NCBI GenBank assembly: GCA_032622095.1
Contig: CP136063.1
Coordinates: 24,120,987-24,184,986, forward strand
Direction of reading: 5' to 3'
Length of the DNA stretch: 64,000 nt
DNA from: Siphonodentalium dalli
Taxonomy: Eukaryota; Mollusca; Scaphopoda; Gadilida; Siphonodentaliidae
Shown piece by piece: positions 12,553 to 60,880 of this stretch (positions within the stretch are counted from its first letter, which is position 1; each line of letters starts with the position of its first letter). The notes under the pieces are model-generated. The model saw only the letters and a program-made list of their open reading frames with translations. It was not told the DNA's origin and made no database searches. Both the position numbers and the translations under genes were made by a program.

Positions 12553-12568
12553 GGCCCTGAAAAGGGCC
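12553..12568 (-). terminator. Histone-type mRNA 3' stem-loop
   Basis: On the minus strand this reads GGCCCTTTTCAGGGCC, preceded by AAAC and followed by ACCCAAA: the metazoan histone 3' stem-loop consensus (6-bp stem, TTTC loop). It begins 19 nt after the stop of the PTY-repeat gene (12588). A purine-rich AAAAGATATGCTCTG follows about 13 nt downstream. Confidence 0.9.
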
Positions 12569-12587
12569 GTTTAAATTGTTTGCCGAA

Positions 12588-12939
12588 TCAATAAAATTCA
12601 GACAAATCAGGATAAAATCCTCCCTTGTTATATGTGGGTCTCCAGTGTGGATCCGACACGTATTCTGCTTCCTCAGTGGTAATCCACCTTGGTAGCGGCT
12701 TTGGAGGATTAAATTCAGACAAGTCTGGATATAATGCCCCCTCCTTATACGTAGGTTTCCACTCTGGAGTTTCCACATACACCTTGGGAGGACTAGGTCT
12801 CCGTCTTTGCAGGAATTCTTGAACTCCAACTCTAATGGCTAGCTTATGGTTCTCCGAATCTCTAACATTCTTCTGCCAATACTTTAATTGAGCATTGGCA
12901 GTGAATTTTAGCAAAATTTTCATTTAGTTTAGAGAACAT
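12588..12939 (-). pseudogene. Polinton accessory protein with duplicated PTY motif
   Basis: About 117 codons. A basic N-terminal helix (WQKNVRDSENHK, LQRRRPSPP) is followed by two copies of a motif: W-x-PTY-x2-G-x2-YPDLSEF at about residues 60-80 and again at the C-terminus. A 2-nt deletion near 12917 separates the native start (ATG at 12939, by comparison with copy 2) from the rest; a downstream ATG at 12923 keeps the main frame open. No known family is recognised. It is divergently arranged with the MDYRDLY-type gene across a promoter block and ends in a histone-type stem-loop. Confidence 0.65.
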
Positions 12940-12954
12940 TTTGAAGATAAAAAA

Positions 12955-13040
12955 AACATTACACTGCGCCCCATATTATATGAAACGCGCGGACGCCGCC
13001 GCTGACGACGTCATGCGTATTTCAACAAATTTCTCCGAAC
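12955..13040 (-). promoter_or_regulatory. Shared accessory-gene promoter block
   Basis: The minus strand carries the block found upstream of every accessory gene with a histone-type 3' end: GACGTTCGGAGAAATTTG, then TGACGTCGTC, then CGTCCGCGCGTTTCATATAA, a TATA-like end about 30 bp before the gene start. Confidence 0.7.
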
Positions 13041-13080
13041 GTCAATTCAAGTGTTTCTTTTTTCCAAAATACCTCGAGCG

Positions 13081-13560
13081 ATGTGGGGTGTGTCAGTGAC
13101 AGGTCTCAGAACCTGGGCTCTCACTCTGACTCATGGGTCAGAGTGACAGTCAGCGAGGGGTGGGCCAGGGTGACAGGTTCCAGGTTAGGATTCATCGGTC
13201 CAGAGGTTGTGTTAGATTCCAAAAGAGTAAGGTGAGCGCTTCGAAGGGATTTTTTGACAGAAAAGAGCACAATTTACCAATGTATAGATTTCTTCTCGGA
13301 TTCTAATGTCAGTGTGGTAAGCGAAGGGCGCTCCCCTTCACTGTACACATTGAACTTATAATAATACGAGAACAAATAGATACATTGTTAAATTGTGCAT
13401 TTTGTAACAAAAGCGAAAGTCTTTGAATAAATTCGAAGACGCTAGCATTGTACAATGTACTTGCAGAAGTTACCTTTCAGTGAAATATGTTATGAGATAA
13501 TTGTAAAATGGTACAGATAAATTTTCCCGAGTCAAATCGGTGTTTTTATTCATAGAAATA
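13081..13560 (+). repeat. Extra internal copy of the Polinton TIR
   Basis: Matches the left TIR of copy 2 in the same orientation: palindromic CTCTGACTCATGGGTCAGAG, then GTCCAGAGGTTGTGTTAG, the CGAAGGG hairpin and GTACAGATAAATTTTCCC. It lacks the outermost AGTAGTATTG. Copy 2 has only a short palindrome here, so copy 1 carries an additional or displaced TIR between its divergent genes. Confidence 0.8.
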
Positions 13561-13574
13561 TGATGTTTTTGACC

Positions 13575-13665
13575 AAAAAAAGAAACACATCTGATTTGAA
13601 GTTCGGAGAATTTGGTGAAATACGCATGACGTCGTCGGCGACGTCCGCGCGTTTTCAATAAAAAA
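13575..13665 (+). promoter_or_regulatory. Shared accessory-gene promoter block
   Basis: Reads GAAGTTCGGAGAATTTGG, then GCATGACGTCGTC, then CGTCCGCGCGTTTTCAATAA, ending about 35 bp before the ATG at 13699. Same block as at 31345, 32690-32900 and 60335. Confidence 0.7.
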
Positions 13666-13698
13666 AACCAGATATCCCCATTCTTCATTTATACCGAA

Positions 13699-14110
13699 AT
13701 GGATTACCGAGATCTGTATCGGAGCTATTTGGAGGATGGGATGCTGGTGAAAGGTGTTTGGGGATGAAGCACATATGATATGGAAGGCTTTGAGTTTAGC
13801 AGAAACAGGGACGGTAGATAACTGTTTTGATATCTACAGGTACACCGTTATGTTGATGACGGACAACAGAGATCGGGTGTTTGGACTGCCACCACGGTGG
13901 ATCCGACACACCATATTGATGGTACGACTTTCGGCTACATCACTACAGCGGTCTATCATAATCTTCTCAGGGCAAAGAGTTTAGGAATTCGCACCGCTCT
14001 GGGGGATACAGACAGCCTAGCCGTGCAATTGTGCCATTTGGTTGCGACGTTCCCAAGACCACTTTCAGCTGTATACAAACCCAAACACATCGTGCGGTTT
14101 CTTTTTAAAC
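13699..14110 (+). pseudogene. Polinton accessory gene (MDYRDLY type), frameshifted
   Basis: Starts MDYRDLYRSYLEDGM and loses frame near 13755. The next segment (MIWKALSLAETGTVDNCFDIYRYTVMLM) is recognisable in another frame, and the 3' part is again shifted. The same gene on the minus strand of copy 2 (32256-32680) keeps a longer frame. No family is recognised; the centre is hydrophobic and helical. The end is placed shortly before the histone-type stem-loop at 14121, so it is approximate. Confidence 0.55.
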
Positions 14111-14120
14111 CATACAAAAC

Positions 14121-14136
14121 GGCCCTTTTCAGGGCC
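14121..14136 (+). terminator. Histone-type mRNA 3' stem-loop
   Basis: GGCCCTTTTCAGGGCC on the sense strand of the MDYRDLY-type gene, preceded by AAAAC. The 3' flank is TCTCAAA rather than ACCCA. AAAAAGATACGCTCTG follows about 13 nt downstream. Confidence 0.85.
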
Positions 14137-14386
14137 TCTCAAATTTTTAAAAAGATACGCTCTGAAATTGCTACTGTACGATTTTGTTCATTCTTCCTGG
14201 AGAGAATGTTCGCATAATTTCTCCAAACCAAAATCATTCATCATGAACTTGGAGAAATATTTTCACATAATTTATCAAAGAATACTTCCCTAACAATAAA
14301 AAAAAACCCACTACCACCCTTCATATCTATAATACGATCATCATATAGCATAATAATACAGAGCGTATCTTTCGTGAATTTTAAAT

Positions 14387-14402
14387 GGCCCTGAAAAGGG
14401 CC
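14387..14402 (-). terminator. Histone-type mRNA 3' stem-loop
   Basis: Minus-strand GGCCCTTTTCAGGGCC preceded by TTTTAAAC, downstream of the coiled-coil accessory gene. CGAAAGATACGCTCTG follows. The stop codon that precedes it in copy 2 has been lost here, so the open frame runs through the stem-loop. Confidence 0.88.
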
Positions 14403-14426
14403 GTTTAAAATAATATATATAAAAAA

Positions 14427-14876
14427 TAATTTCTTTTGTTTCTTCATCACTGTTAAATCTTTCCCGAGTGATCCAAATGTTGATCGCTTCGTAGGTTCTT
14501 TCTGAAAACCACCTACCTCAATTGGTATGTCAATCGTGTGAGGTTTCAAGTTGATTGTACATTCAGCCGGTTTTTGTGTTAATTGCTTTCGCAAATCCTT
14601 CATTTCCTGATAAATATTCCGTAACAATTTTTTCTGTTCTTCCCATTGTGAACTGTTGATAACTTGGTATATAACAGGTTGAGCTATTTGTTGTGTTTTC
14701 ACCGGCGGTGTATACACTGGTTGTTGATCAGCTCGCGGATACACCATTGGTACCTGTTACTGTTCTACCCGTGGCGTCACATTTCCTGCATACAGTGGAG
14801 TCGACATTTGCGTTGTTGCAGGACCCTGATCGTACTGTACATCAATAGTCTTGAGAAATTCCGTTACTGGATCCAT
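14427..14876 (-). pseudogene. Polinton accessory protein with coiled coil (MDPVTEF type)
   Basis: About 150 codons starting MDPVTEFLKTIDVQYD. A Pro/Gln/Thr-rich segment is followed by a predicted coiled coil (EEQKKLLRNIYQEMKDLRKQ) at about residues 80-105 and a C-terminal beta-like region ending in a basic KKQKK. A TAA at 14757-14759 breaks the frame, and the native stop (TGA in copy 2) is replaced by TTA, so the frame reads on to 14241. It is the first gene inside the terminal repeat. The function is unknown; a virion or scaffold role would be speculation. Confidence 0.65.
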
Positions 14877-14949
14877 GTTTCAAAATAACGCTAACGTTAC
14901 AATTTACGCATCTAATACGTTAACATTTTCGAGCATCAAGTATATGGGA

Positions 14950-15030
14950 TGCGAGGGCCTCGTTGACGACGTCATGCGTTTTTCTACCAAATTTCTCCGA
15001 ACGTCAAATCAGATGTGTTTCTTTTTTGTC
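14950..15030 (-). promoter_or_regulatory. Shared accessory-gene promoter block
   Basis: Minus strand: GACGTTCGGAGAAATTTGG, GCATGACGTCGTC. Lies about 70 bp upstream of the coiled-coil gene start (14876) and joins the inner edge of the terminal repeat. Confidence 0.65.
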
Positions 15031-15079
15031 AAAAACATCATATTTCTATGAATAAAACACCGATTTGACTCGGGAAAAT

Positions 15080-15654
15080 TATATCTGTACCATTTTACCA
15101 TTATCTTATACAATATTTCACTGAAAGGTAACTTCTGTGAGTACATTTTACAACGCTAGCATCTTCGAATTTATTCGAAGACTTTAGCTTTTGTTAAAAA
15201 ATGCACTGGTAAAGTAGCACAATTTACCAACACATCTATTTTTTCTTGGTATTATTCTAAGTTCAATGTGTACAACGAAGGGGAGCGCCCTTCGCTTACC
15301 ACACCGGCATTAGAATCCGAGAAAAATCGATACATTGGTAAATTGTGCTCTTTTCGGTCAAAAAAAACCATTCGAACGCTCAACTTACTCTTTGGAATCT
15401 AGCACAACCTCTAGACCTACCCTGGGCCGTCACTCTGGCCCACCCCCCTCGTTTGGGGCCACTCTGGTCCATGGGCCAGAGTGGCAGCCCCCAGAAAATT
15501 TCTGGGGACTGCTAGTCTGGCCCATGGGACAGAGTGGTCCCAAACGAGGGGGTGGGCCAGAAAAATTAAAAAAAACCTGGGACTGCCACTCTGGCTAATG
15601 GGCAAGAGTGGCCCCAAACGAGAGGGGTGGGCCAGAGTGGCAGCCAATACTACT
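15080..15654 (-). repeat. Polinton copy 1 terminal inverted repeat
   Basis: Contains the conserved order of hairpins (TCTTCGAATTTATTCGAAGA, the GGGAGCGCCC hairpin) and then the palindromic GGCCCATGGGCC-type array. It ends with CAATACTACT at 15654, the exact terminus seen at 61468 in copy 2. The next six bases are GACGTA, unlike the AGCGCT beside copy 2, which fixes the element boundary. Confidence 0.9.
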
Positions 15655-15660
15655 GACGTA

Positions 15661-30629: not shown

Positions 30630-31215
30630 AGTAGTATTGACTGTCACTCTGGCCCACCCCCTCGCTACGACGAGCGAGGGGTGGGCCAGAGTGACGGCCC
30701 AGGGCCGGGCTCGTCGTCACTCTGGCCCATGGGCCAGAGTGACAGACCCAGAAATTTCTGGCCCATGTTTGTTTACCCAGGGCTGTCACTCTGGCGCATG
30801 GGCCAGAAATTTCTGGCCCATGGGCCAGAGTGACAGCCTCGGGTAAACAAACATGAGCTAGAAATTTCTGGGTCTGTCACTCTGGCCCATGGGCCAGAGT
30901 GACAGCCAGCGTGGGGGTGGGCCAGAGTGACCCGCCCATGGTCGGTCCAGAGGTTGTGTTAGATTCCAAAGAGTAAGGTGAACGCTTCGAAGGGTTTTTT
31001 TGACAGAAAAGAGCACAATTTACTAATGTATCGATTTTTTATCGGATTGTAATGGCAGTGTGATAAGCGAAGGGCGTCTCCCTTCGCTGTACACACTGAA
31101 CTTAGAATAATACCGAGCAAAAAATAGATGCATTGGTAAATTGTGCTACTTTACCAGTGCATGTTTTAACAAAAGCGAAAGTCTTCGAATAAATTCGAAG
31201 ACGATAGCGTTGTAA
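30630..31215 (+). repeat. Left terminal inverted repeat of copy 2
   Basis: Reverse complement of 60925-61468. The outer half is an array of perfect palindromes with arms TCACTCTGGCCCA (for example 30716-30743 and 30876-30903) plus AGAAATTTCT. The inner half has the GCGAAGGGCG hairpin and the 22-bp palindrome with arms GTCTTCGAAT. Confidence 0.92.
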
Positions 31216-31489: not shown

Positions 31490-31938
31490 ATGGATCCAGT
31501 AACGGAATTTCTCAAGACTATTGATGTGCAGTACGACCATGTTCCTGCAACAACGCAAATGTCGACTCCACTGTATGCCGCAATATAACACCACGGGTAG
31601 AACAGCAACAACTACCAATGGTGTATCCGCGAACGGATCAACAACCAGTGTATACACCGCCAGTGAAAACACAATAAATGACTCAACCTGTTATATACCA
31701 AGTTATCAACAGTTCACAATGGGAAGAACAGAAAAAATTGTAACGGAATATTTGTCAGGAAATGAAGGATTTGCGAAAGCAATTAACACTAAAACCGGCT
31801 GAATGTACAATCAACTTGAAACCTCACACGATTGACATACCAATTGAGGTACATGGTTTCCAGAAAGAACCTACAAAGCTATCAACATTTGGATCACTCG
31901 AGAAAGATTTAACAGTGGTGAAGAAACAAAAGAAATGA
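31490..31938 (+). pseudogene. Polinton accessory protein with coiled coil (MDPVTEF type)
   Basis: Counterpart of 14427-14876: the same start, the same Glu/Lys-rich coiled-coil segment, and a native TGA at 31936-31938. At least two frameshifts (near 31590 and in the coiled-coil region) disrupt it, so it is read in pieces. The stem-loop begins 19 nt after the stop. Confidence 0.65.
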
Positions 31939-31957: not shown

Positions 31958-31973
31958 GGCCCTTTTCAGGGCC
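31958..31973 (+). terminator. Histone-type mRNA 3' stem-loop
   Basis: GGCCCTTTTCAGGGCC after TTTAAAC, followed by ACATAAA and then CGAAAGAGACGCTCTG about 13 nt downstream, the best match in the window to a U7-binding downstream element. Confidence 0.92.
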
Positions 31974-32226
31974 ACATAAAATTCACGAAAGAGACGCTCT
32001 GTATTATGCTATATGATGAGCGTAGTATATATATGAAGGGTGGTAGTGGGTTTTTGTTATTGTTAGGGAAGTATTTTTTTATAAAATTATTTTAAACATT
32101 CTCTCCAAGTTCACGATGAATGAATTTGGTTTGAAGAAATTATGTGAACATTATCTCCAAGTTCAGGAAGAATGAACACATCGTACAGTAGCAATTTCAG
32201 AGCGTATCTTTTTTTAAAATTTGTGA

Positions 32227-32242
32227 GGCCCTGAAAAGGGCC
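32227..32242 (-). terminator. Histone-type mRNA 3' stem-loop
   Basis: Minus-strand GGCCCTTTTCAGGGCC after CAAAAC, followed by TCACAAA and AAAAAGATACGCTCTG. Lies about 13 nt after the proposed stop of the MDYRDLY-type gene. Confidence 0.88.
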
Positions 32243-32255: not shown

Positions 32256-32680
32256 TCAAAAGAAACCGCACGATGTGTTTGGGTTTGAATACAGCTGAAA
32301 GTTGTCTTGGGAACGTCGCAACCAAATGACACAATTGCATGGCCTGTCTGTATCCCCAAGAGCGGCAAGAATTCGTAAACTCTATGCCCTGAGAAGATTA
32401 TGATAGACCGCTGCAGTGATGTAGCCGCAAGTCGCACCATCAATCTTGACGCCCCCAGCAATCTGGCGTGTCGGAACCACCGTGGTGGCAATCCAAAGAC
32501 CCGATCTCTGTTGTCCGTCATCAGCATAACGGTGTACCTGTAGATATCAAAGAAGTTATCTACAGTACCCGTTTCTGCTAAATTCAAAGCCTTCCATATC
32601 ATCTGTGCTTCATCCCCAAACACACCTCTCACCAGCATCCCATCCTCCAAATAGCTCTGATACAGATCTCGGTAATCCAT
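32256..32680 (-). pseudogene. Polinton accessory gene (MDYRDLY type)
   Basis: Starts MDYRDLYQSYLEDGM and keeps frame through MIWKALNLAETGTVDN and FDIYRYTVMLMTDNRDRV. Beyond about 32470 the two copies agree only across different frames. The end is placed at a TGA (32256-32258) just before the stem-loop; it needs one frameshift relative to the start. No family is recognised. A faint resemblance to the right-end gene (60457-60851) is visible: a small helical WKA segment followed by GT. It is divergent from the PTY-repeat gene across a 200-bp palindromic promoter. Confidence 0.55.
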
Positions 32681-32689: not shown

Positions 32690-32900
32690 AATGAAGAATG
32701 GGGATATCTGTTTATTTTTTATTGAAAACGCGCGGGCGCCCCTGACGACGTCATTGCATATTTCACCAAATTTCCCCGAACGTCAAAACAAGTGTGTTTC
32801 TTTTTGTCAAAAGAAACACACTTGAATTGACGTTCGGGAAAATTTGGTGAAATACGCAATGACGTCGTCAGCGGCGTCCGCGCGTTTCATATAATATGGA
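32690..32900. promoter_or_regulatory. Palindromic bidirectional promoter
   Basis: Two promoter blocks in inverted orientation (each with GACGTTCGGG, AAATTTGGTGAAAT and TGACGTCGTC) meet around GTGTTTCTTTTTGTCAAAAG. They serve the divergent MDYRDLY-type (start 32680) and PTY-repeat (start 32927) genes. Each outer end has a GCGCGTTT followed by a TATA-like AT-rich stretch. Confidence 0.75.
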
Positions 32901-32926: not shown

Positions 32927-33280
32927 ATGTTCTCTAAACTAAAAGAGAAAATTTTGCTAAAATTCTCTGCCGATGCTCGATTAAAGCATTGGCAGAAGAA
33001 TGTTAGAGATTCGGAGAGCCATAAGATAGCCATTAGAGCTGGAGTTCAAGAATTCCTGCAAAGACGGAGACCTAGTCCTCCCCAGGTGTATATGGAAACT
33101 CCAGAGTGGAACCCCACGTATAAGGAGGGGGCATTATATCCAGATTTGTATGAATATAATCCTCCAAGACCACTGCCAAGGTGGATTACAACTGAGGCAG
33201 CGAAATACGTGCGAGATCCATACTGGAGACCCACATACGACAAGGGATGACTTTATCCTGATTTGTCTGAATTTTATTGA
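32927..33280 (+). pseudogene. Polinton accessory protein with duplicated PTY motif
   Basis: Native start MFSKLKEKILLKF, basic helix, LQRRRPSPP, then the duplicated W-x-PTY-x2-G unit with YPDL. A GGA-to-TGA change at 33248-33250 stops the frame 10 codons early relative to copy 1; the native stop is at 33278-33280. A histone-type stem-loop begins 19 nt after it. Confidence 0.7.
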
Positions 33281-33299: not shown

Positions 33300-33315
33300 G
33301 GCCCTTTTCAGGGCC
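33300..33315 (+). terminator. Histone-type mRNA 3' stem-loop
   Basis: GGCCCTTTTCAGGGCC with 5' flank TTTAAAC and 3' flank ACCCAAA, identical to the textbook metazoan form. CAAAAGATACGCTCTC follows. Confidence 0.93.
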
Positions 33316-33447
33316 ACCCAAATTTTTCAAAAGATACGCTCTCAAATTGCTACTGTACGATCTGTTCATTCTTCCTGAACTTGGAGAGAATGTTCACATA
33401 ATTTCTCCAAAAAAACGTAACAAGTAATTAAATCAATAATATTTTAT

Positions 33448-34048: not shown

Positions 34049-34145
34049 GTCGTCAGTGAAATGACGACGTGATGAAAAATCGCGTCGCTTTTATGCTCTG
34101 ATACGGACGATGACTGCGCGATTTTTCATCGCGTCGTCATTTCAC
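34049..34145. promoter_or_regulatory. Inverted-repeat divergent promoter (damaged)
   Basis: Same structure as 11747-11856: left arm AATGACGACGTGATG...TTATGCTCTGATACGGA, but the right arm has lost its inner part. It ends CATCGCGTCGTCATTTCACG next to the polB start (34147). Confidence 0.65.
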
Positions 34146-35278
34146 GATGAAGCGCATTGTGTCATATTCAGATAGCGAAAGCGAACGAGATAATAGAAAG
34201 AGAGTACGACTGGATGATGACTGTAAATATTATACTATAAAAAATCTGACCGATAAATACTCGAGGAAATTTAAAACAGCATCAAAGAAATACAACGTCA
34301 CATTTCAAGAATTTCATCAACCATTTCAAACTGTTCACATAATTTTCAAAGATCTGGTGAACAGTTTGAAAGATGAGTGTGATGCAGGACCGAAAGATCA
34401 AATGAGAATTTCCATCTTTCATCCAAGGCTAGATCTAGGGATTCACGTCCCATTCACTGAAGTAAAAGACCTGACGGGTGAATTATTGCTTGACAACATA
34501 GAAAAAGTTGCACAATCGAACACAAAATTCTAAATTCATGACGGACAGATGACATTTGACATCACTGTCACGCATATGCCTACAGGTACCCCAAGACATA
34601 CATTACATTATGGAGCATTCGGTGAAAAAAATCAAATGAAAACAGTAAAGAAAAGTATTCTTCTGATTCAGAACACAGAAGATAACATGTGTTTTGCGAG
34701 GGCTGTCGTTGTTGGTATGTGTAATGCTGACAAAAAATATACCGCTGAATGGAAGCAACAATGGAAACGGATTACGAGACCAGCAAGAGCTCCACAACGG
34801 GAAGCTGCAAAGTCATTGTTGGATACAAAATTATTCAGGAACAATTATATCCGGAGTATGTTTTAAAAATACATAATCAATTTGCTGACGAAGGCTTTCT
34901 TTTTCAACCACCACCTGTTGTCCATCTATATTTCAATGACAACCACTACGATGTGAGCACAACTGTCACAGGATTCCTTGGATGTATTTATTACTGTGAA
35001 CACTGTGATGTCGGTTTGACAAACAGAGGTGATCATTTATGTCCATACAAGTGTATGTGTTTCGAGGGTCAGATATGTCCCTTTGAACGATGGATACACT
35101 GCATCAAATGTAAGAGGAATTTTAAAAGTAAACGATGTCTCGACAATCATTTGAAAAAATCACCAAAACAAGACAAAACTATTTGTGATATGATACACAA
35201 ATGCCAGTAATGTGGGGTTGAAATCGTCACACGAAAGGAGAAAAGACATATCTGTTCAGGAACAAAGAAGTGTAAAAT

Positions 35279-38200
35279 TCATCACAACCCAAAAGGGTTA
35301 TTTTACGGTATTGCGTAAGCGACGCAAGTAAAGTTGTGACGTCACTAATTTATATAATCCGTCAACATGAAAAAATTGTTTTTACATCCGGGCGATTCAG
35401 ATCTATGGGGCCCAGTGGTGGCCGCCATGTTGGAATAGAATTGACAAATTAATAAAACGAATTTATTTTTCTTCGATCAGCCTCCCCATAGCAACACTAT
35501 TTAATTTGAAACACAAAATCAACCTTATTCAAAATTAAATGCTTAATGTGGATTTAGCTGACACGGGCGCGTAGCATTCGGCAAACCTCGCCAGATTCCG
35601 TACCGTTACAGTTTGAAAATTACGTCCCCTGGCAGGCCATAGCAACGTTGGAAATGATGACGTAATTTCGTTACAAAATGGTGGCGCTCTCTTATTTGCG
35701 ATATATGAAATTGAATTGCTTGTTATTGTTATCGCTCGTATTTTAAATGTACAACGGTATCACAGCACGTAGTGGGGGGGGGGGGGGTAGTTGCAAAATC
35801 GTTCACTTTGTGATAGAAGCGCCAAACTTTCAGAGTTTGGTAAGTGGTTGGTGAGTATCACTAAACTGGCTGGTTCCAGATTTTGGAGGTCACCTTGATC
35901 TTCAATTTGCCCTTGACCTTTTTGAAAATCTCAGTTTTTGGGTTGGGTGGTTTATGCCATCCTTTTCTTGTGAAAATTGCATCTTCTCACAGTTTTCTCA
36001 ATACCATTATAGTTGGGAGGTGACCACAGTTCATTTGGGCCAAAACATATCTAAATTTTCATGAGATGGCCGCCAATATGGCCGCCGGAAGTTAAAAATA
36101 TGACATTTTTTCACAAATGTCTTCTAGTTCAATTCATGCTGTTTGGAACTGGTAGAGTAATGCAACTTTATTTGGTGTTTTGTATATTAACCGATCATTG
36201 GAGCAATTAAATATGCAATTATTGTGGTCCTAGCCCCTTCCGATCCCTCAAAACTTCGATTTTACAGGATGCGGTATAAAATTTCACAAAAAATCACAAT
36301 TGGGATTCTAGTCATATATCAACAAGAAATGAACATAACTTTGTAATGTAAGTGAGGCATATCATTACATATGAATGTTCCAAATCACTGGAACCAAAAT
36401 TCTTACTTTTGCTCAAAATGGCTGCCAATATGGCCGCCAAAATATGGAAAATGGTAAATATTACACCAGCGTCTCCTGCAATCGTTTGCAAGTTGTTGTT
36501 GATGTATAACATTGGCAATTCTGCATTCTATACATTGAATACTAACATGTCTGATGCACCATGGTTAATTGTTACTATTGTCACCACTGACATCGTCAAA
36601 AATATTGGACTTTTCTCTCAAAAACTTGACATAAATATTGGCAAAAATTCACTTTTCAGGTTTGGACCATTTTTCAGGTAAAATGTAACTATCTTTGGAT
36701 TGAAAGGTGTTTATTGTTTTGGTCTATCTTAAATGTGTCTCACTACGGTGTTTATAGATCAAATTGCTCAAGATGGCTTCCAAAATGGCAACCAAATTTT
36801 TAAAATGTTAATTTTTTACATATATCCCGAACATTCTCTGCGTTATCCGAAAATGTAGCAAAATGTGACTCACTTGGTTATTATACGTGTTAGTTAATTA
36901 ACTGACAACTAAATGTTCTATTCTGGTTGTCCCACTTCCGTATGGGGCAAAATAAATTCATTTTAAAGTATGTAATTTTGCCGAGCACCTCTTTTGTGAT
37001 TTTGGCCATAGTTATTGTAAGGAAATGGGCAGAACTTTGAGACAGAATTGAGATGGACCATAATATTTGGCTATTCTGGTCCATTATGCTAAGAAAATGT
37101 CTGAATACAGTGTGGATGCCAAGATCGTAGCAAGGGAGTTACTCTATGATCATACGTGAGGTGAATAGGTATACAGTGAGTTATTGTACGTCATGACTTA
37201 TGTGAATAGGTATACAATGAGTGACTATATGGTTATGAGTGGGTTGTCCATTATAAGATGCATCTATGTATACAAGGAGATGTCATGGTCAGGTGTGATG
37301 GTAATCGGTATGCATGGAGTGACTGTATAGTGCATGATTGTGTATATCCAGTACGGGTGCACCAGGTGTGCCTGTATGGGCATTGGTGTGGTGTATGGAT
37401 ATAGCTACATGGTCATCTATGTGTTGATTGTGTATATATGGAGTGACTGTAAGGGCATGGGTGGGATGTACATGTGTTGTCTGTATGATCATGGATGGGT
37501 GTGTTGGTAAATAGGGTGTGATTTTATGGTTACGGGTAATGTGTATAGGTATACATGGAATGACTGTACGGTCATGATTGAATATGATTACCTGGAGTAA
37601 GCTGGGTGGACATTATCGAGTGTGTGGGTATATAGGGAGTGTCCTTGTGGTAACGGGTGGGATGCATATTGATATATCTCATGGATGTATTATCATTGGT
37701 GGATTAGGGATTAGCTGTATTATCATGGATGGCATGTATGATTATACAGTGAATTGCTGAATTGTCATGTGTGAGGTGTATAATTATGCAAGTATGGATT
37801 GTTTGAGTGGTTGTGTGTATATCTGGAAGGGCTGAATGGCCATTAGTGAGGTTTACTTGTATGCTTGGAGTGAATCTATGGTCTAAGGTGGGCTATATAT
37901 ATATATCGAGTGGTTATATGACTATGTGTGTCGATATAGGTATACAGGTAGTGAATGTATGGTCAATGGTGCGATGAGTACATGTAGGTATACAAGTAGT
38001 GACTGTATGATCATAAATATAATGGATATCTATACAGGGGGTGACTATTAAATTGGCCATGTGTCAGGCGTATGAGTATACCTGGTGTTCCTGGTTGGTG
38101 ACTCGTGGCGGTATGGTCATGTGTAGGTTATACCAGTATACACATGTGTTGCTTTATTGTCATTGGCAAGGGATATGTGTATATAGCAAGTGGCTATATG

Positions 38201-41158
38201 GCCATGGATAAAGTGCATATGCATACATGGAGTGACTATACTGACATGGCTGGGGTGTATTAGTATATCTTGAGTGACTATGCGGCTATGGTGTGACAAA
38301 TAGGGATACAGGGAGTGACATGGCCAATGTTGAGGTGAATATGTATGCAAGGATTGACCATGGTCGTGTATGAATGTTTTGAATAGGTACACACGGTGTG
38401 ACTATATGGCCATAGGTCAGGTACCATTGGTGAAGGTATGTGTATGAAGCGAGTGGCTATATGGCCATTGGTGAGGTGCATATGTATACCCGGAGTGACA
38501 TTATGGTCATTGTTGATATATATATTGATTGTCTATTTGACCACGTGTTTGGAGAATAGGTATACGGGGGATGACCTTATGGCCAATGGTGAGCTGAATG
38601 GTTATACAAGGAATGACTATATGGTTATCTGTCATGTTTAGGAGTATCCCCGGTGTGCTTGTATCGTGACGCGTGGCTGTAAGGTCACCCGTGGTCATGG
38701 GTCAGATGTACATGGATACAGTGGGTCACTATATTGATATGTCTGTGGTGTTTATGTATATAAGTAATGACTGTGGTAATAGATGGCCATCGTGTTCCGT
38801 GTTTAACGCCCCCCCCATGTATATAAACACCATCAAGATAGAGAACTCTCTGACATTACCTCTCCATTGATTAACATATCCTTGAGTTATTGTGCCACCC
38901 AAGGTACACATGTACAACCCACCCATTACCTCAGTCACTCCACTTTATACACGTACACCTGATCATACAGCCATACTTGGTTATACCCGTGCATACCACA
39001 AATGACGATACAGCCACGCGTCACCATGTATGAACACCAGGTATACACATACACCCGACACATGGCCATATAGTCACTCTATGTATACATATTCACTACA
39101 TTCACGATCATACGGTCACGCGTTGTATACCTATTCCCATAGAGTCAATCCAAGTATACATATGCACATCACCAATGGTGAACCCTTCCAGATATACCAA
39201 TACCCGCACATACGACCTCTCATAAGTTCCACAATTGCCATACTCATGATCATGCATCTACTCCCCATACACCATCAATGATAACACATCCACAACATAT
39301 ATAAATATACAACCCACCGTTGCCAACAGGGCACTCCCCATATACCCACACATCATCCATGACCATAAAATAACTCGCGGTATACCTATTATCCTCATCT
39401 GCGATCATAGAGTAACTCCCTGGCTGTCATCTTGGCTTCCACCCTGTATCCAGTTGATAAATGTTTATCATAATGGGCCAGACTACCCACATCTCATGGT
39501 TCATCTCAGTTCCGTCTCAAAGTTCTGCCCATTTCCTTTCAATAATATGGTCATAATCACAAAAGAGGTTATCCGCAAAATTCCATACTGCAACTTTAAA
39601 ATGAATTTGTCATGCCCCATACGGAACTAGGATAAACATACTAGAACATAGTTGTCAGTTAATTAACTAACAGGTATAATAACTAAGTGAGTCACAAAAT
39701 TTGCTACCTTTTCGGATAACGCAGAGAATAGTTTTCTGGATATGTGTAAAAAAATTTTTTTTACAAATTTGTTTGCCATTTTGGAAGCCATCTTGAGCAA
39801 TTTAGTCTATGAACACCATACTGTGACACATTTAAGATAGGTCAAAACAATAAACCCATTTGATTCCAAAGGTAGTTGCATTTTATTTTTAAAAAATGGT
39901 CGAACCCTGAAAAGTGATTTTTTGCCGATATTTATGTCAAGTTTGTGAGAGAAAAATCCAATATATCTGGTGATGTCAGTGGTGATAATAGTAACAATGA
40001 CACATGGTGTATCAGACATGTTAGTATTCAATGTATAGAATACAGATTAGCCAATTATATACATCAACCACAACTTGTAAGCAATTGCATGACACCCTGG
40101 TGCAATATTTACAATTTTCCATATTTTGGAGGCCATTTTGGCAGCCATTTTGAGCCAAGGTAAGATTTTTGGTTCCAGAGAGTTGGAATATTCATAGGTA
40201 ATGATATGCCTAACTTGCATTACAATGTTCTTTTCATTTCTAGTTGAAATATGACTAGAATCCCAATTGTGATTTTTTTGGTAAAATTTTGTACCGCGTT
40301 CTCTAAAATCGACTTTTTGAGGGATTGGAAGGGGTTAGGACCCCAATAATTGCATATTTAATTGCTCCAATGATCGGTTAATATACAAAACACAAAATAA
40401 TGTTGTATTACTCATCCAGTTCCAAACAGCATGAATTGAGAAGATATTTGTAAAAAAATGTCATATTTTCAACTTCCGGCGGCCATATTGGCGGCCATCT
40501 TATGAAAATTTAGATACGTGTTGGCCCAAATGAACCGTGGTCACCTCCCAACTATAACTGTATTGAGAAAACTGTGAGAAAATGCGATTTTCACAAGAAT
40601 TGGATGGCATAATGCACCCAACCCAAAAACTGAGATTTTCAAAAAGGTCAAGGTCATATTGAAGGTTAAGGTGACCTCCAAAATCTGGAACCAGCCAGTT
40701 TAGTGGTACTCACCGACCACTTAACAAATTCTGAAAGTTTGGCGCTTCTATCACAAAGTGACCGATTTTTATGTTTTCCTGTAAACTAATCAAATATTTT
40801 TTTCCCACCGAAGCCAAAGAAAGAGTGATTTAGCAGCGTCTTATCGGATTGAGTACCTTTAAGTTATTTCCTTCATAAAAAGAGTCTTATGATAAAGAAC
40901 CCTCTCAATATTTTAGAATATAGAATGAAACTTCAAAATAACAAGTTATAAAAACCTTCTGAATTTTGAGGAATATAGAGAAACACGGGAATAGCGAAAC
41001 TTCGGTATAATGAACCTTTGGACATAGAGTGACATGTCGCCGTCCTACGGTCCATACGCACTGGCGTGATCGTATATCCCAAGTTGGCCAGAAATACAGG
41101 CACTCCTATGAGACATACATTTATCATATCATTTGGGTGGTCCATACGTACTGACGTA
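35279..41158. mobile_element. Foldback element inserted in polB
   Basis: Long inverted arms lie at about 35793-37130 and 39430-40770. Matching landmarks are GATAGAAGCGCCAAACTTTC and its complement GGCGCTTCTATCAC, and GGCCGCCGGAAGTT and AACTTCCGGCGGCC. The 2.3-kb centre is repetitive and is listed separately. Outer strips (35279-35792 and 40771-41158) are not inverted copies of each other; the right one has two GGTCCATACG-ACTG-CGT repeats. No transposase was found. Confidence 0.8.
37130..39430. repeat. Diverged tandem repeats in opposed orientation, foldback centre
   Basis: From 37130 to about 38870 units of roughly 40-60 bp carry GTATACA-GGAGTGACT-TATGGTCAT. From about 38880 to 39430 the complement appears (CCATATAGTCACTC, TGTATAC). 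The switch of strand near 38870 is the loop of the foldback. Confidence 0.8.
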
Positions 41159-43641
41159 ATCATATTATTTTTCTATTTTGAATGTCAACAAGATACTGGT
41201 GTTCATATACCCAATGTTTGTGTTGCACAAACTGCTTGTGAAAATTGTATATGTAAACCCATTGATGGAATATGCAATTCATGTGATTCTGTATTGTCAA
41301 ATAGAGAATATGTTTTTAAAGGTGACAATGTATTGGAAATATTTTGTAAATGGTTGTTTTACACCAACGACCATAAAGGCATAACATGCATTGCTCACAA
41401 TGCAAGAGGCTACGATAGTCAGTTCCTCTTATATTACTTGGTGAACAATGGAAATTCAAAACATAATGTTATTATTGATGGTAACAAAATACTGAGTTTA
41501 CAATGTAATGGTGTTAGAGTAATCGATTCATTGAGTTTCATCCCAATGGCATTATCTAAATTTCCAAAGACTTTCCAACGTGAAGAAATGGCTAAAGGTT
41601 ATTTTCCACATTGGGCAAATACACAGGACTTTCAGAATTACGTCTGAAATCATGTCTGAGGAAAATAGGGATTCATTTCTGAAATGGTATGAAGCTAGGG
41701 GTGAGGATATTTTTGATTTCAAAAAAGAAATTCAAAAGTATTGTAAATCAGATGTAGACATTTTAAGACGTGGATGTGGCAAGTTCAGACTATGTGTAAT
41801 GGAAACTGATCAAATAGATCCATTCCGGGAAGCAATAATATTAGCTCAAACCTGTAACCTTGCATGGAGAAAAAATTCATTACCAGAGAATTCTCTAGGT
41901 ATAATTTAAGACGCTGGATATCCACAAGCACGTAAATATTCATTGAAAGCAATTCGATGGCTACAGTACATTGCTACAAAACAAAATATAAACATAAAAC
42001 ATGCTTTAAATGGTGGTGTAGTTAAAATAGGCACACATTTTGTTGATGGTTATCATGCAGAATCAAACACAGTGTATGAAATGTATGGGTGTTTTTTTCA
42101 TGGCTGTACTACTTGCTATCCAGATAGAAACCGCCGAAACCCATACAGTAATATGACAATGCATGAATTGTATGAAAAAACAATAAAAACGGAAACTGAA
42201 ATCAAAAGCTTGGGATGCAAATTAATATGCATCTGGGAACATGACCTGGACTATAAATGTAAAGCAGACAAAAATTTAAAACAAACTATGGATCAATTCT
42301 ATTTGCATCAAGACCCAATTAAACCAAGGGAAGCATTATTTGGTGGTAGGACTAATGCTCTAAAATTATATCATGAAATAGAACCAACATCTAAACAGGT
42401 AATAAAATATATTGATGTATGCAGTTTGTATCCTAGTGTAAATAAATATAGGGAGTACCCTCTTGGTCACCCTGCAATTCTAAGTCAGGAACAAATAGGA
42501 GACATCAATTCTTACAAAGGACTCATTAAATGCAAAGTATTACCTCCAAAAAAGTGTACATTCCAGTGCTACCGATCCACTGTAATAACAAAATGATATA
42601 TACATTGTGTAAAACTTGTGCAGAAAATGAAAGTGGACAGTGTAGTCATAAAACTGAACAGCGTGCTTTAGTTGGAGTTGGACGCATGTAGAATAATTCA
42701 AAGCAATAGAATTGGGTTACCAAATTCTGGAAGTGTATCAAGTTTGGCATTGGACTGAGTGGTCGGACAAAGTATACAGGGATTACATTGATAAATACCT
42801 CAAAATTAAACAGGAAGCAAGTGGATATCCAAATGCTGTTAAAAGTGAAGAAGATAAAGATAAATACATTAAAGATTATTATGAGGTTGAAGGTATAAAA
42901 CTTGAAAAAGAAAAAATTCGAAAAAACCCCAGGACTCCTCCAGTGCTCAAAATTAATGATAAATTGCATATGGGGAAAAATGCACAAAATAATATTCTTA
43001 CTAAAACTGAATATACTTCAGAACCATCCAGATATTTTGATCTACTAAATGATAAAAATATCACAATCAAAGCAGTTGAAATTTTTTAACAAGATAAATT
43101 CATATTATTCAGCTATGAAAATAAAACCGATATTATAGAACACATTCATCTGTCAATGTAGTTGTTGCATCATTTGTCACAGCATATGGACGCTTGGAGT
43201 TGTATAAAGTTTTAGAAAAACTCCAAGATAGGGTGTTGTATTTCGACACCGATAGCTGTATGTATATTTTTGATCCAGAAAAAGAAAATATCAAAACCGA
43301 AGACCTTGGTAAATGGACTGATGAGCATCCGGATGCTAAAATCATGAAATTTGTAGGGTTTGGACCGAAAAATTATGGATATCAGTACGTGAAAGATGGT
43401 GTCATAAAATCTGTATGTAAGGTCATCGGTATCACTCTGGATTATAAAACTAAACAGCAAATCAATTTTCATTCAATGATTGAATGTGTTAACGACCGGT
43501 CAAGTTTTCAACGTGTCATAAACTATCCATGCAGAATTAAACGCACAAAGAACCGAGAAGTAATTAGTGAAGAGCAAACAAAAACATTCCGATCTGTGTA
43601 CACCAAACGACTTGCTGTGGATGAATACAACACAATTCCTT

Positions 43642-44226
43642 ATGGATGGCATTGATGTGTTACCAGCAGAGATGCTTTTGAAAATTTATAATAACTTGAT
43701 CGAAATGTCAAAAATGGATCGAGAAATCAAACTATAACTTAAGCAAACTTGGTTTTTGAGGGAAATTAAAATTATAGTGCAGACTTTGCTAAACGGACAT
43801 TTCTCTGAGGGGCAGAGTCGACTGAGATGTTTGATTGAGAGATCAGAATTTGAAACTGATTTCTTAATGGATATATTGGATCAACTGTTTTCAGATTATT
43901 GGAAATGTCATGGTGTTCCTAAAAACAAAATAAACGAAATTCGTGAATTAGTTGAAAATAATTTTGTTCGTTTTGCTGAATATCAAGACAGGATTCTCAA
44001 TGAAAAAACTTTGAAATTCGAAGAGGTGACGAGAATATATGGATACATTATTCTCCGAGAACCATGTACAATTTTCATTGCTGAAAAGTTATTTGAAAAA
44101 AAAATGTCTTTGGATTATATTGTAAAAACCACTAGACCTATTTCAGATTTAGATAATGAACTCATATGGACATTTGGAATAATCTGGAGTTATGGTGACT
44201 TTTCATTAAAAATAAAAAAAGGTTGA
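43642..44226 (+). pseudogene. F-box-like protein downstream of polB
   Basis: Begins at the ATG at 43642, inside the last 14 bp of polB, with LPAEMLLKIYNNL (F-box-like). A stop at about 43736-43738 breaks it; the frame continues from 43756 with LLNGHFSEGQSRLRCL. An extra A near 44220 shifts the final residues relative to copy 1, where the protein runs to VDSEQS. Conservation of the overlap in both copies supports a real gene and translational or transcriptional coupling to polB. Confidence 0.55.
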
Positions 44227-44273: not shown

Positions 44274-44930
44274 ATGGACGAATCACTGTTGTTCAAACAA
44301 CCCTGTAACATTTTCATATCGGGGCCAAGTGGTTGTGGTAAAACAGATTTTGTTAAGAAATTCATCGAATATAAAGATGATTTGTTCAAACCTGTTCCAT
44401 ACAAAGTCGTTTGGTGTTACAAAGAATGGCAAAATACCTATAGTCAGATTCAAGAATTTCACAATATTCAATTTATAAATGGAATACCGGATGATGACAA
44501 TGAACGTGTCGATGACACAGACTTACCGCACCTCGTCGTTTTTGATGACATGTTAGGTGATAAAGATGAAGAAAATATTATGTAGTGGTTTACAAGAAAA
44601 GGACATCACAGAAGTACGTCTGTTATTTACATAACCCAAAACATGTTTCAGAAATCTAAAGCGAGTAGAACTTTGAGTTTGAATGCACATTACATGGTAT
44701 TATTTCAAAGTGTGCGTGATAAAGGCCAAATAAAAATTCTTGCCTCTCAAATGCAAATACCTCATTTAATGCAAGCATATGATGATGCAACTTCAACCAA
44801 TCATGGTTATTTACTACTCGATTTTCACCCAAAAACGGATAAATCGTTGAGACTTAGAACTGATATTTTCCATCGCTCGCACACAAATGACGATCGAGGT
44901 GCGGTAATATATTCATCGGTAATAAGATAA
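44274..44930 (+). pseudogene. Polinton FtsK/HerA-type packaging ATPase, one nonsense codon
   Basis: Walker A GPSGCGKT, Walker B LVVFDDM, then VIYITQN and a C-terminal RLRTDIF as in Polinton ATPases. The start is the ATG at 44274 (MDESLLFKQP). A TAG at 44583-44585, where copy 1 has TTG, is the only break seen. It is expected to work with the capsid as a DNA-packaging motor. Confidence 0.9.
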
Positions 44931-46628: not shown

Positions 46629-47725
46629 ATGGGATCCATACTAGATGAACAGTTATCTAAAATTTTATATGATCCGAAGAAAGTTGGAAGTTATGGTGGT
46701 GTAAAGAAGCTTTTTGATGAAGCGAAAAAGCAAAATAAAAAATAAAACTCATAGATGTGAAGAAATTGTTGCAAGGTCAGTCGACATATAATTTACACAA
46801 ACCAATAATTCGAAAATTCCAACGTAGAAAGACTGTTGTAGCTGGGATTGATATTCAATGGCAGGCAGATTTAGCTGATCTTCATAATTTGAAAAAAACA
46901 TAATGATAATTACAGATATCTGTTGTGTGTGATAGACGTGTTTTTCAAAATTTGCGTGGGTACTGCCAATCCACGATAAATCTGGACAAACTTTGATCGA
47001 ATCATTCAGGAAAATTGTGAAATCTTCAAAACGTAAACAAAACTCGTTTCGAGCTGATAAAGGTTCTGAAATCAAAAATGAAAAGTTTTTGAAATTTCTG
47101 CAATCAGAAAGCATTCATTTCTTCAAAACTGAGAATCCAGAGACTAAAGCAAGTATTGTTGAGCGATTTCAAATAACTTTAAAAACTCGTATGTGGAAGT
47201 ATTTCACACACAATAAAACTTCAAGATATATTGATGTTTTACAGCCCCTAGTCGATTCTTACAACAATAGTTATCACCGTAGCATAAAATCGAAACCGTC
47301 GGAAGTTACTTTGAAAACTGAAGCTGAAATTTCCAAAAATCTTTATGGAACCTGATGGAACAGGGAATAAAAAAGGAAAATCTACACTGAAAGTGGGTGA
47401 CTTGGTTTGTATCAACAAAACCAAAAGAACATTTGAAAAGGATTATTTACCAAACTGGACTCGTGAAATTTTCAAAGTTGATAAAATTTGTAAAACTAAT
47501 CCAATAACATACAAAGTTTCTGATCTTGATGGTGAAGAGATTGATGGATCATTCTACAAACATGAAATCCAGCATATAAAAGACAGTGAGGTGTATGATA
47601 TAGAATCAGTTATTGATAAAAGAACGAGAAGAGTGGGTGGTAAAACAGTAAAAGAAATTAAAGTTCATTGGCTTGGATATCCAAAAAAGTTTGACAGTTG
47701 GATCCCAGCTTCAAATTTAGTATAA
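46629..47725 (+). pseudogene. Polinton retroviral-type integrase with chromodomain
   Basis: Catalyses integration of element DNA. The start is the ATG at 46629; the N-terminal region has YDPKKVGSYGG. The DDE triad is visible as Asp in QWQADLAD (about 46865), Asp in FRADKGSE (about 47060) and Glu in KASIVERF (about 47160). RYIDVLQPLVDSYN follows. The C-terminus is a chromodomain (VIDKRTRR...HWLGYPKKFDSWIP), which could target modified histones. Breaks: near 46740, 46905, 46935-46990 and 47350. Confidence 0.92.
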
Positions 47726-57994: not shown

Positions 57995-58473
57995 CAGCCC
58001 TGGGAATTAAGGAAAATTTGCCTAGGCAATATATTTTCCTAGGTGAAAGTAATCGGCCTATAAGGCAAAAACAGATTTTACCTAGGCAATTTGCAACAAT
58101 ATTGCCATCTCAAATCAAAATGATTCAATAATAACCTGAAATGCTTAGTTATTTTGGGGAACATGATTTTCAGGCCACTATTCAACATATATGTACAATT
58201 CCACAAATCATCTCCAAAATAAGAGTCCTTATACAGGGTAGCTAGTTAATGGCCGAGTGCCATGGAAACAATTGTAGGGTAATATCGGTATATATGAAGA
58301 GTGATTTAAAGAAGTCATTTTGGCTAAAGAGGCTCTATTTCTGATAGACACAAATCAATTTTAGTAACCCAATGAACTTGTTTTACCTATGAAATATAAT
58401 TGCCTAGGCAAACCGATTTTGCCTCTGCTTTTACCTAGGCATTGCATATTGCCTAGGCTAATTCCCAGGGCTG
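57995..58473. mobile_element. MITE with CAGCCCTGGGAATTA termini
   Basis: 479 bp with 15-bp inverted ends, flanked on both sides by TTGTATA (57988-57994 and 58474-58480). The interior has several TGCCTAGGCA palindromes near both ends. CAG-type ends with a 7-8 bp duplication suggest a hAT-derived element, which is an inference. Confidence 0.75.
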
Positions 58474-59099
58474 TTGTATATATGTGTGTGATGTAATGAC
58501 ATGTAATATATGTAATATATCATAATATCATTCCCAGACAACTGGTATATGTTGGAATTATGGACACCACTTTGTCAGAAGTTAATATATAATGGAACTT
58601 CATTTCTGCCTAAATGTATTATATACCGGTATGAGTACTGATATGCCCTATATTTTAGGCTATAAACTACAACAAACATGAAGTTCCAGGCACCACGACC
58701 ATATGCACAGTGGGAATAACTGTAGGGCCTATACTTATATTGTATCACCTGCTTGTGTCTTATATTTGACCTATATATGCCTACATTTATATATGCTGAA
58801 CAGTTTATTATCTTACAGTATTTAGCATCAGTGCCTTAGACCAAATAATAGTCTTCTCGGAAATATCAGGCCTCAAGTGGTACATTTTATTCGGATGGAG
58901 TGAGTATTCTCCTTTATTTAGACCAAATAAATCGTGTACATGTACGGTATCATCTTATTTGACGATTTCATCCGTGTAGATGCTAATGATACAAGCTGTG
59001 AAGCTAGCATACTGTGAATACGTTTGTTATTTATATGTACTACATGTATATATGTTTCATTAAAACCACACACCCAAGTTGACTCAACATGTATATATA
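58474..59099. other. Unassigned non-coding DNA
   Basis: AT-rich, with short TATATG-type stretches. No feature supported. Confidence 0.35.
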
Positions 59100-59665
59100 G
59101 CCCATGTTTGGTCGGATCTTCATGAAATTTGTCATGGATGTTAACAATGACATGTAGATGGGAACGAGTCCTTTTGGGGTCATTCGGTCAAAAAACAGGG
59201 CCGCCAACAGTCATCTTGGGTTTTACTCTTTGCAATGACTAAATCCTTTGGCACAGGCTACAGATCGTACCTTTGGTCAGATAATTATGAAATTTGTCAT
59301 GGCTATTGACATTGACATGTAGATGGGAACGAGTCATTTTGGGGTCGTTTGACCAAAAACATCGCCACCAGCGGTCATCTTGGATTTCATAATTCAATCC
59401 ATTAGCACGGGCTACAGGTCGTATCTTTTGTCGGATCTTCATTAAATTTGTCATGGATGTTAAAATTGACATGTAGATGGGAAACGATTATTAGACGACT
59501 AAATCATTTGACACAGGCTACAGGTCGTATCTTGTGTCGGATCATCATGAAATTTGTGATGGATGTTAACAATGACATGTAAATGGGAAGGAGTTTTTTT
59601 GGGTCATTTGGCATCAAAAAACATGGCTGTCGTGGCCATCTTGGATTTTAATCTTTGCATAACTA
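59100..59665 (+). repeat. Second block of the 150-170 bp tandem array
   Basis: Same units as 53850-55665 (ATGAAATTTGTCATGGATGT, ATGTAGATGGGAACGAGTC), at least three copies. The two blocks are probably one array split by later insertion of 55.7-59.1 kb. Confidence 0.8.
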
Positions 59666-60334
59666 AGCCTTTCAACTTTCCACATTCCTAAACGCTCCAT
59701 TGACTGTAACACGTGAAATTATTCCCATTCCAAATTGAGCTACAGTGTCATAAATACATTTCAGTCAATTCACATTTTCAGCTTCATATACATGTAAACC
59801 AATTTCATCAGTGTTTTCTTCATTAAAGGAAATTGCAAATTCATCGTTGATTCCATCATATAAACATTTCATTATCAACTGGGTGGTTGCTCCATTACGT
59901 GTCACGTACGATCATATTAGTTGAAATGTATTTTGATGGTGACTACTTCAAAAATGATAGAAAAGTATTTGATGGTTTCATAGAAACTATGAGCCCTTAC
60001 GAAAAGAATCAGAAACATTACCCAAAACATGTATTTCACAAACTTGTAAGACTTACTGTGAATTTCAGTATTGATAAAATGTGATCATTACCAATTGTTT
60101 AAATATGTTAAAATCACAATCATTTGTAAATATGTTGATTGTTAATGATGAAATGAGTTACCAAATGTAAATTATGTTCATTGCATTACCAATTATTGAT
60201 TGTAAATAAGATAATTTCATGATCAGTTGTAAATTTGTTGATTCTTAATTCAAAAATAAAAGTTATGTTGTTGAAAAACAGTCTTTTTTAATGATCGTCT
60301 TCGGCAATGTCGATGAAGATCTTAATTCACCAAA
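59666..60334. other. Unassigned; possible 3' end of an unidentified gene
   Basis: An AATAAA lies at 60256. A plus-strand frame at 59887-60084 and a short acidic minus-strand frame at about 59780-59920 are both open but unrecognised. Neither is called. Confidence 0.3.
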
Positions 60335-60415
60335 AAAAGAAACACATTTGAAATATCATTTGGGAAAATTGGTAGAAAATCACAATGACGACGCCAACGA
60401 CGTCCGCGTGTTTTA
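60335..60415 (+). promoter_or_regulatory. Shared accessory-gene promoter block
   Basis: Reads CATTTGGGAAAATTGGTAG, CAATGACGACG, CGTCCGCGTGTTTTACATAT. Diverged but recognisable copy of the block at 31345 and 32690-32900, about 40 bp before the ATG at 60457. Confidence 0.65.
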
Positions 60416-60456
60416 CATATAACAAAATCCCATTTAGAGCATATCATTTATCCACG

Positions 60457-60851
60457 ATGGAATACCCTAAAACTGATCTTATGTCAGAGCCATCCTTGTA
60501 GTGGCTGCGAAGCCCATTGCGGTGTGGAAGGCCATTTCCTGGGCAATGTTTGGTACAGATGAAAAGTTATTTGAACTATTCGCTTTTGTCTGTGCAACTT
60601 GGGCTCGGAATCCTACACTGCTCAGTGGACAGGAGATAGAGTACATCGAATGGCTTGGGACAACAGATGTCTTACTCACGGTGTTTTGGAGAGAGAAAAA
60701 GCAATACAGATTCAGCGTATCCCCAGTGAGTAATGTGAGTATACCGAAAGGTATATTTCCATCTCTCATCGAGGGTTCGCTTGTGTTTCGGGCGTTCGAT
60801 CAAGAGGATGGATTTGAGTTCCTAAAGACCCCTTATCCACTTTTCTTGTGA
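60457..60851 (+). pseudogene. Right-end Polinton accessory protein (about 131 codons)
   Basis: Starts MEYPKTDL. A 1-nt shift near 60482 leads into the long frame (AAKPIAVWKAISWAMFGTDEK...), which ends in TGA at 60849-60851. The body is helical at first (WKAISWAMFGT, LFAFVCATW), then beta-like (YRFSVSPVSNVSIP). It shares the promoter block and a histone-type stem-loop with the left-arm accessory genes, so it belongs to the same regulon although it sits at the opposite end. No family is recognised. A weak resemblance to the MDYRDLY-type protein (WKA...GT) may reflect common origin. Confidence 0.62.
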
Positions 60852-60864
60852 TCTGACGTAAAAC

Positions 60865-60880
60865 GGTCCTTTTCAAGGCC
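60865..60880 (+). terminator. Histone-type mRNA 3' stem-loop, variant
   Basis: GGTCCTTTTCAAGGCC with 5' flank AAAAC and 3' flank ACCCAAAA, starting 13 nt after the stop of the right-end gene. One stem pair is a C-A mismatch and one is G-T, so it is a decayed version. Confidence 0.8.

Follow-up and report, generated by a model that had tools for sequence, protein, structure and literature searches.

Histone-type 3' stem-loops follow small non-histone Polinton genes in the scaphopod Siphonodentalium dalli

To our knowledge, use of the histone stem-loop pathway is regarded as confined to replication-dependent histone mRNAs, and no Polinton has been described with histone-type 3' ends. Animal mRNAs that depend on SLBP are regulated through the hairpin itself. 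According to the available text of two studies, SLBP binds the histone hairpin, the U7 small nuclear ribonucleoprotein (snRNP) pairs with a downstream element and CPSF73 cuts between the two (PMC7026596, PMC1924863), and SLBP both aids processing and controls translation (PMC1924863). Among the open-access PMC matches listed, no title or abstract opening reports histone-type 3' ends for Polintons or any other DNA transposon, although one paper (PMC12220804) contains the words histone, stem-loop and polinton; a term search of the available text of one Polinton paper (PMC4028283) returned neither 'histone' nor 'stem-loop'. Here, we analyze a stretch of 64,000 nucleotides from the scaphopod Siphonodentalium dalli (GenBank assembly GCA_032622095.1, contig CP136063.1, positions 24,120,987 to 24,184,986 of the forward strand; hereafter the window), which contains two related Polinton copies, A and B, in mutually opposite orientation, and in which hairpins of the histone type follow a set of small genes. 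Judging from sequence, we consider it very probable that these hairpins are real histone-type 3'-end signals used by Polintons, and that one co-regulated gene set is routed through the host SLBP/histone 3'-end pathway. The case is built on the identity of the hairpin with that of the host, its strand and spacing, its recurrence, the promoter shared by the genes that carry it, its absence after the DNA polymerase B gene (polB) and the small gene T4, and the presence of an SLBP gene in the host. If the reading is correct, Polintons would be the first mobile DNA element known to us to use the histone stem-loop pathway for unrelated genes.

As a preliminary description of this DNA had stated, the window has seven hairpins, each on the sense strand and just 3' of a small Polinton gene. 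Six are exact copies of GGCYCTTTTCAGRGCC, at 12553(-), 14121(+), 14387(-), 31958(+), 32227(-) and 33300(+), and the seventh, at 60865(+), reads GGTCCTTTTCAAGGCC, with two mismatches to GGCYCTTTTCAGRGCC. One extra site with three mismatches occurs in the window, at 2942, and the expectation from 100 shuffles at up to three mismatches was 0.57, with 4 as the largest count. The gene names T1 to T5 were coined in this analysis, and T1, T2 and T3 are followed by hairpins in both copies. In copy A these are T3 (12588..12923, minus strand, 111 aa; hairpin 12553..12568), T2 (13699..14108, plus strand, frame broken; hairpin 14121..14136) and T1 (14411..14876, minus strand, frame broken; hairpin 14387..14402). 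In copy B they are T1 (31490..31938, plus strand, frame broken upstream; hairpin 31958..31973), T2 (32259..32680, minus strand, terminal stop lost; hairpin 32227..32242) and T3 (32927..33280, plus strand, with an additional premature stop at 33248; hairpin 33300..33315). The in-frame stop is also lost in T1 of copy A. At its right end, copy B has a T2-like gene (60457..60851, plus strand, frame broken early), which precedes the hairpin at 60865..60880. This last hairpin does not belong to a third element; it adjoins the right terminal inverted repeat (60962-61098) of copy B. The count of four gene types made earlier is fair, with the qualification that the relationship of the gene at 60865 to T2 is at best weak (27% over 30 aa, E 6e-4).

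The distance from stop to stem, given in the preliminary description as 13–19 nt, is 19 nt for T3 in both copies and for T1 of copy B and 13 nt at 60865, and falls just short of that range at 12 nt for T2 of copy A. All 16 hairpin bases are unchanged between copies A and B at the three genes that they share, in surrounding repeats that are 81–92% alike. The covariance search with the Rfam histone stem-loop model (RF00032) that had been proposed places three of the seven window hairpins at or above its gathering score, 34 bits (39.1 for T3 of copy A, 38.0 for T3 of copy B and 34.4 for T1 of copy B), and four stay below it (33.7 for T2 of copy B, 31.9 for T1 of copy A, 30.1 for T2 of copy A and 19.4 at 60865).

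We searched one host genome (2.23 Gb in nine contigs), in which RF00032 gave 75 scored matches, all above the cut-off; among 14 control genomes there was one match, below the cut-off. The host histone arrays encode H4, H2B and H2A. The Pfam core-histone model passes for H2B and H2A, and H4, with 22.9 bits against a cut-off of 26.4, was named by sequence. The core-histone tandem arrays lie at C5:111.42-111.74 Mb and C8:156.30-156.93 Mb, in units of approximately 4 kb. Host H4, H2A and H2B genes terminate in AAAC-GGCCCTTTTCAGGGCC. These 20 bases, which include the AAAC 5' flank noted before, are identical to those at six of the seven window sites.

For T2 and T3, the likeness to host histone genes extends past the hairpin. 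Downstream blocks of host and Polinton are of a AAAAGATACGCTC type and a AAAAAGATAAAC type; after the hairpin, H2A and H2B read ACCCAAATTTTCCAAAAAGATAAAC...ATTGCT and T3 of the window reads ACCCAAATTTTTCAAAAGATACGCTCT.AAATTGCT, a stretch in which one base differs between the two copies and another at C. In T1 to T3 a purine-rich block, resembling the histone downstream element (HDE), follows approximately 12–14 nt downstream of the hairpin. These HDE-like blocks lie at 12525..12539 (minus strand, AAAAGATATGCTCTG) and 33329..33343 (plus strand) after T3, at 14149..14164 (plus strand) and 32198..32214 (minus strand) after T2, and at 14359..14373 (minus strand, GAAAGATACGCTCTG, shared with T2 and T3) and 31987..32001 (plus strand, GAAAGAGACGCTCTG) after T1, in copies A and B, respectively. 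When the 55 nt after each hairpin were compared with host histone stretches, using 1,000 shuffles each, T3 and T2 in both copies were nearer to the host than any shuffle (0/1,000 as high). The scores were 33–43 for T2 and T3, 16–17 for T1 and the gene at 60865, and at most 25 for 45 stretches after other long frames.

Isolated RF00032 matches in the host genome fall in another, divergent Polinton family (family II). In Pfam its DNA polymerase B matches PF03175 (1.2e-37), its ATPase is of the Pox_A32 type (6e-9) and its integrase matches rve (6e-13). The window genes are 30% (T3; 93 residues, E 6e-10), 39% (T2; 87 residues, 5e-18) and 25% (T1; 83 residues, 1e-4) identical to their family II counterparts, with E values from single comparisons. 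Where the frame is whole, the family II hairpin stands 18–22 nt past the stop of T1, T2 and T3. A further small family II gene, T5, has two tandem hairpins, the second usually GGTCCTTTTCAGGACC, a paired stem change. The model check that had been proposed for other Polintons puts 23 of the 32 hairpins at nine family II loci above the RF00032 gathering score; the best of them scores 43.2 bits, compared with 42.4 for host histones at locus L118. The proposal of histone-pathway 3' ends on non-histone Polinton genes is thus supported by a hairpin that is shared with host core histones and kept at 25–39% protein identity.

Genome wide, the 20-mer AAACGGYCCTTTTCAGGRCC, with two degenerate positions, has 1,377 + 1,408 = 2,785 matches, histone genes included, and its reversed control has 0 + 0. 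The first 30 loci in coordinate order, all on contig C1, were cut out, and all 30 are sense-strand 3' ends of T1, T2, T3 or T5 (28 in family II and two in family I), with the hairpin 18–22 nt after the stop and the second T5 hairpin at 48 nt. Host histone hairpin sites are estimated, from array lengths and the density at L118, to number at most a few hundred; most of the 2,785 matches are therefore probably Polinton, by deduction rather than by count. T1 and T2 have dN/dS values of 0.25–0.54 between two subgroups of copies, which indicates purifying selection and, hence, real genes; among close copies, with few changes, values range from 0 to 1.16.

These counts also bear on the idea that the hairpins arose by chance or are generic and terminator-like. 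In its favor, the bare 16-mer (C/T and A/G variants) is found in 101 stretches of IMG/VR viral contigs, a likeness to the intrinsic terminators of bacteria and phages (we read these contigs as phages). These sites differ, however, in lacking the histone flanks: AAAC stands directly before none of the 101 and AC directly after none, two flanked patterns have no IMG/VR match at all, and the 12 of the 101 loci that were scanned with Rfam gave no match. Together with the window shuffles and the 2,785 host matches versus none for the reversed control, this leads us to reject a generic hairpin with near certainty.

The genes that carry the hairpin differ from other Polinton genes at both ends. Our sample of gene ends came from the window and from nine loci of family II, all picked by hairpin match, and was limited to tblastn hits with the C-terminus aligned. 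A hairpin follows 29 of 29 T1, T2, T3 and T5 ends (T1 at locus L111 with a stem mutation) and none of six T4 ends, all six of which have AATAAA at 28–30 nt. Outside this sample, T3 at loci L114 and L119 has its 3' end deleted, with no hairpin within 420 nt of the match. Within each family, the hairpin genes have in common an upstream module of approximately 65–90 nt or longer (86–99% alike in family II and 71–90% in family I), which the right-end T2-like gene carries as well. In copy B the pair of modules between the divergent T2 and T3 occupies 32747..32864, and the two upstreams are 90% identical over 162 nt. Family II polB and T4 have another common upstream module, 93% alike; in family I the stretch between T4 and polB gave no match to the hairpin-gene modules. 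A single 15-nt match connects the upstream region of the ATPase gene with the T1 and T3 upstreams. Promoter type and 3' end thus co-occur and mark one gene set, and the different promoter of polB and T4, with the poly(A) signal of T4, would divide the genes of the element into two or more classes that differ in their 3'-end route. The T-gene modules have no similarity to host histone promoters, which we therefore discard as their origin.

Two side observations concern these promoters. In family II (L113:2640-4614 and similar loci), polB and T4 are divergent and have near-identical upstreams and N-termini (MFKRIK.PVSDD), as if the start region had been duplicated and inverted. In the window, 32747-32864, between T2 and T3, and 34049-34154, at the polB start, are long imperfect palindromes; they match plant and other microRNA-precursor models at scores below gathering, which we attribute to the inverted repeat and do not take as a sign of microRNAs.

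Several observations weigh against histone-type 3' ends in these elements. The hairpin at 60865, the weakest of the seven, has a C-A mismatch in the stem and an E value of 1.3, and deserves little weight. The downstream blocks of T1 (484 of 1,000 shuffles as high in copy A and 343 in copy B) and of the gene at 60865 (98 of 1,000) are not above shuffles. Poly(A)-signal hexamers lie past three window hairpins, as AATAAA at 52 nt (T3, copy A) and 159 nt (T2, copy A) and as ATTAAA at 112 nt (T3, copy B), and in seven of seven family II T2 ends an AATAAA runs into the AAAC flank on the 5' side of the hairpin; because of these hexamers, poly(A) ends are possible at such genes. The separation of the gene classes is blurred at locus L112, where the 200 nt after the polB stop contain no poly(A) hexamer and the ATPase has its hexamer only at 164 nt. 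Covariation among the hairpins is not significant, with one two-sided pair change among six distinct variants and 210 of 500 shuffles as high, and was dropped as proof of RNA pairing. Lastly, no U7 RNA was found in the host: the best Rfam match reaches 26.8 bits (E 0.94), short of the cut-off of 34, two pattern searches gave 11 and 32 matches, fewer than their reversed controls (13 and 40), and among the candidates inspected (all 11, and four of the 32) none was convincing, one of them, at L158, having an AT-rich downstream hairpin of -9.7 kcal/mol. The missing U7 match is not decisive because, in the available text of a 2007 study of Caenorhabditis elegans, no U7 RNA had yet been identified in that worm either (PMC1924863).

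The hexamers would fit 3' modules that are passive leftovers of host histone DNA, acquired in a single capture and since multiplied along with the elements, with no part in forming transcript ends, in genes that use poly(A); the likeness of the T2 and T3 downstream stretches to those of host histones, up to ATTGCT, fits this too. Such remnants would, however, have to account for a hairpin kept at a near-constant distance from the stop in two families whose proteins are 25–39% identical, and for AATAAA within 130 nt in none of 20 family II T1, T3 and T5 ends versus six of six T4 ends. We therefore consider passive remnants unlikely. More improbable still is a role of the palindrome in DNA, as a site of replication, packaging, recombination or protein binding, with the histone likeness secondary. 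A near-perfect palindrome makes DNA-level functions possible, and there is too little variation for covariation to prove RNA pairing, but in each case examined the sequence follows a gene and lies on its sense strand, it has the 5' AAAC and is identical to that of host histones, and in most cases a 3' purine block follows in the histone orientation.

The host has an SLBP gene. The SLBP RNA-binding domain (PF15247) is found as two pieces on contig C2, with 60.6 and 31.4 bits, the second with one internal stop, and in none of the 14 control genomes. In the mechanism that we propose, host SLBP would bind the hairpin of T-gene transcripts, the U7 snRNP or an equivalent would pair with the downstream block, and the transcript would be cut between the two, a few nucleotides past the hairpin, and receive no poly(A) tail; SLBP would then promote export and translation of the RNA. 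By this route, T-gene expression would fall mainly in S phase, a time at which a replicating DNA element may draw on the nucleotides and replication factors of the host. We lean, by a narrow margin over even chances, towards the broader proposal that Polintons took over the pathway of host histone mRNAs to serve an entire set of accessory genes, by means of a two-part cassette of their own promoter and a host-type histone 3' end, and thereby tied expression of this set to S phase, apart from polB and T4.

A milder version, in which the hairpin makes histone-type ends and allows expression without poly(A) but with no limitation to S phase, is possible and has a smaller share of our confidence. 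Cell-cycle behavior cannot be read from DNA and the T-gene promoters are unlike histone promoters, which leaves room for it; against it stand the regulation of animal SLBP-dependent mRNAs through the hairpin and the control that SLBP has over translation, as given in the available text of PMC1924863. Should the S-phase link hold, it would give Polintons a simple means to time gene expression to host DNA replication. Histone-type ends would also explain how T-gene transcripts could escape poly(A)-selected RNA sequencing, and the hairpins of the elements, which probably number in the low thousands here, would outnumber those of host histones and could compete for SLBP.

The remaining features of the window place these genes in their elements. 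Copy A is on the minus strand and runs from approximately 15.4 kb down to approximately 6.4 kb, the limit of the listed similarity to copy B, an extent that is based on the best 25 of 36 inverted repeat pairs by length. A terminal inverted repeat segment (15190..15326, repeat D9) marks its left end. A second copy of a terminal-repeat segment (13222-13367) lies inside copy A, between T2 and T3, and suggests a nested insertion or rearrangement, and a C2H2 zinc-finger-like array with an 84-nt repeat, named by sequence, adjoins the left end (15698-16456). Tandem arrays with a 65-nt unit occupy 22009-24441. Copy B is on the plus strand, from approximately 30.6 to 61.5 kb, and its terminal inverted repeats include 30968..31113 on the left (repeat D7) and the right segment noted above (repeat D9), both from a left/right alignment with 82% identity over 587 nt. 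Between the left terminal repeat and polB lie the four small genes T1, T2, T3 and T4, with the T2-like gene at the right end. The zinc-knuckle gene T4, whose 3' part in copy A is at 12090..12479 (plus strand), is convergent with T3, has no stem-loop and has AATAAA at its stop; T4 of copy B is related to family II T4.

The core genes were identified by comparison with family II of the same genome (tblastn), and all three are on the plus strand of copy B without a stem-loop. The polB gene (34147..43649) is broken into pieces that are 32–72% identical to family II polB, the packaging-type ATPase gene (44274..44921) is 70% identical to its family II counterpart, and the retrovirus-type integrase gene (46739..47124), also in pieces, is 59–79% identical (PF00665 1.1e-4, below the cut-off). 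An adenovirus-type protease is below the cut-off as well (PF00770, E 0.011), and two capsid candidates are without a Pfam match. The nearest named relatives of polB are from the oyster Saccostrea echinata (43%) and the sea urchin Lytechinus variegatus (39%), with unnamed ones up to 58%. In IMG/VR, T3, a window polB piece and family II polB had no relatives, in a search that may omit records close to the genome of the window, and a large protein set held no homologues of T3 and family II T2. T3 of copy A has no Pfam family above the cut-off. A Pfam scan of T1, T2, T3 and the gene at 60865 in the window, and of family II T2 and T3, found no histone family, which rules out that the scanned products are histones.

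In their DNA polymerase B, Pox_A32-like ATPase, rve integrase and terminal inverted repeats, these elements resemble Polintons/Mavericks (adintovirus-like elements). Their hairpins resemble the histone 3' stem-loop (RF00032), with the same 6-bp stem, 4-nt loop and AAAC flank and often an ACC flank, in their place after the stop, in a purine-rich block downstream of T1 to T3 that is above shuffles at T2 and T3, and in a host that has SLBP. The T genes differ from replication-dependent histone genes in that they encode no histones and use non-histone promoters, that the first hairpin is 12–25 nt from the stop compared with 29–36 nt in host histones, and that T5 has two hairpins in tandem.

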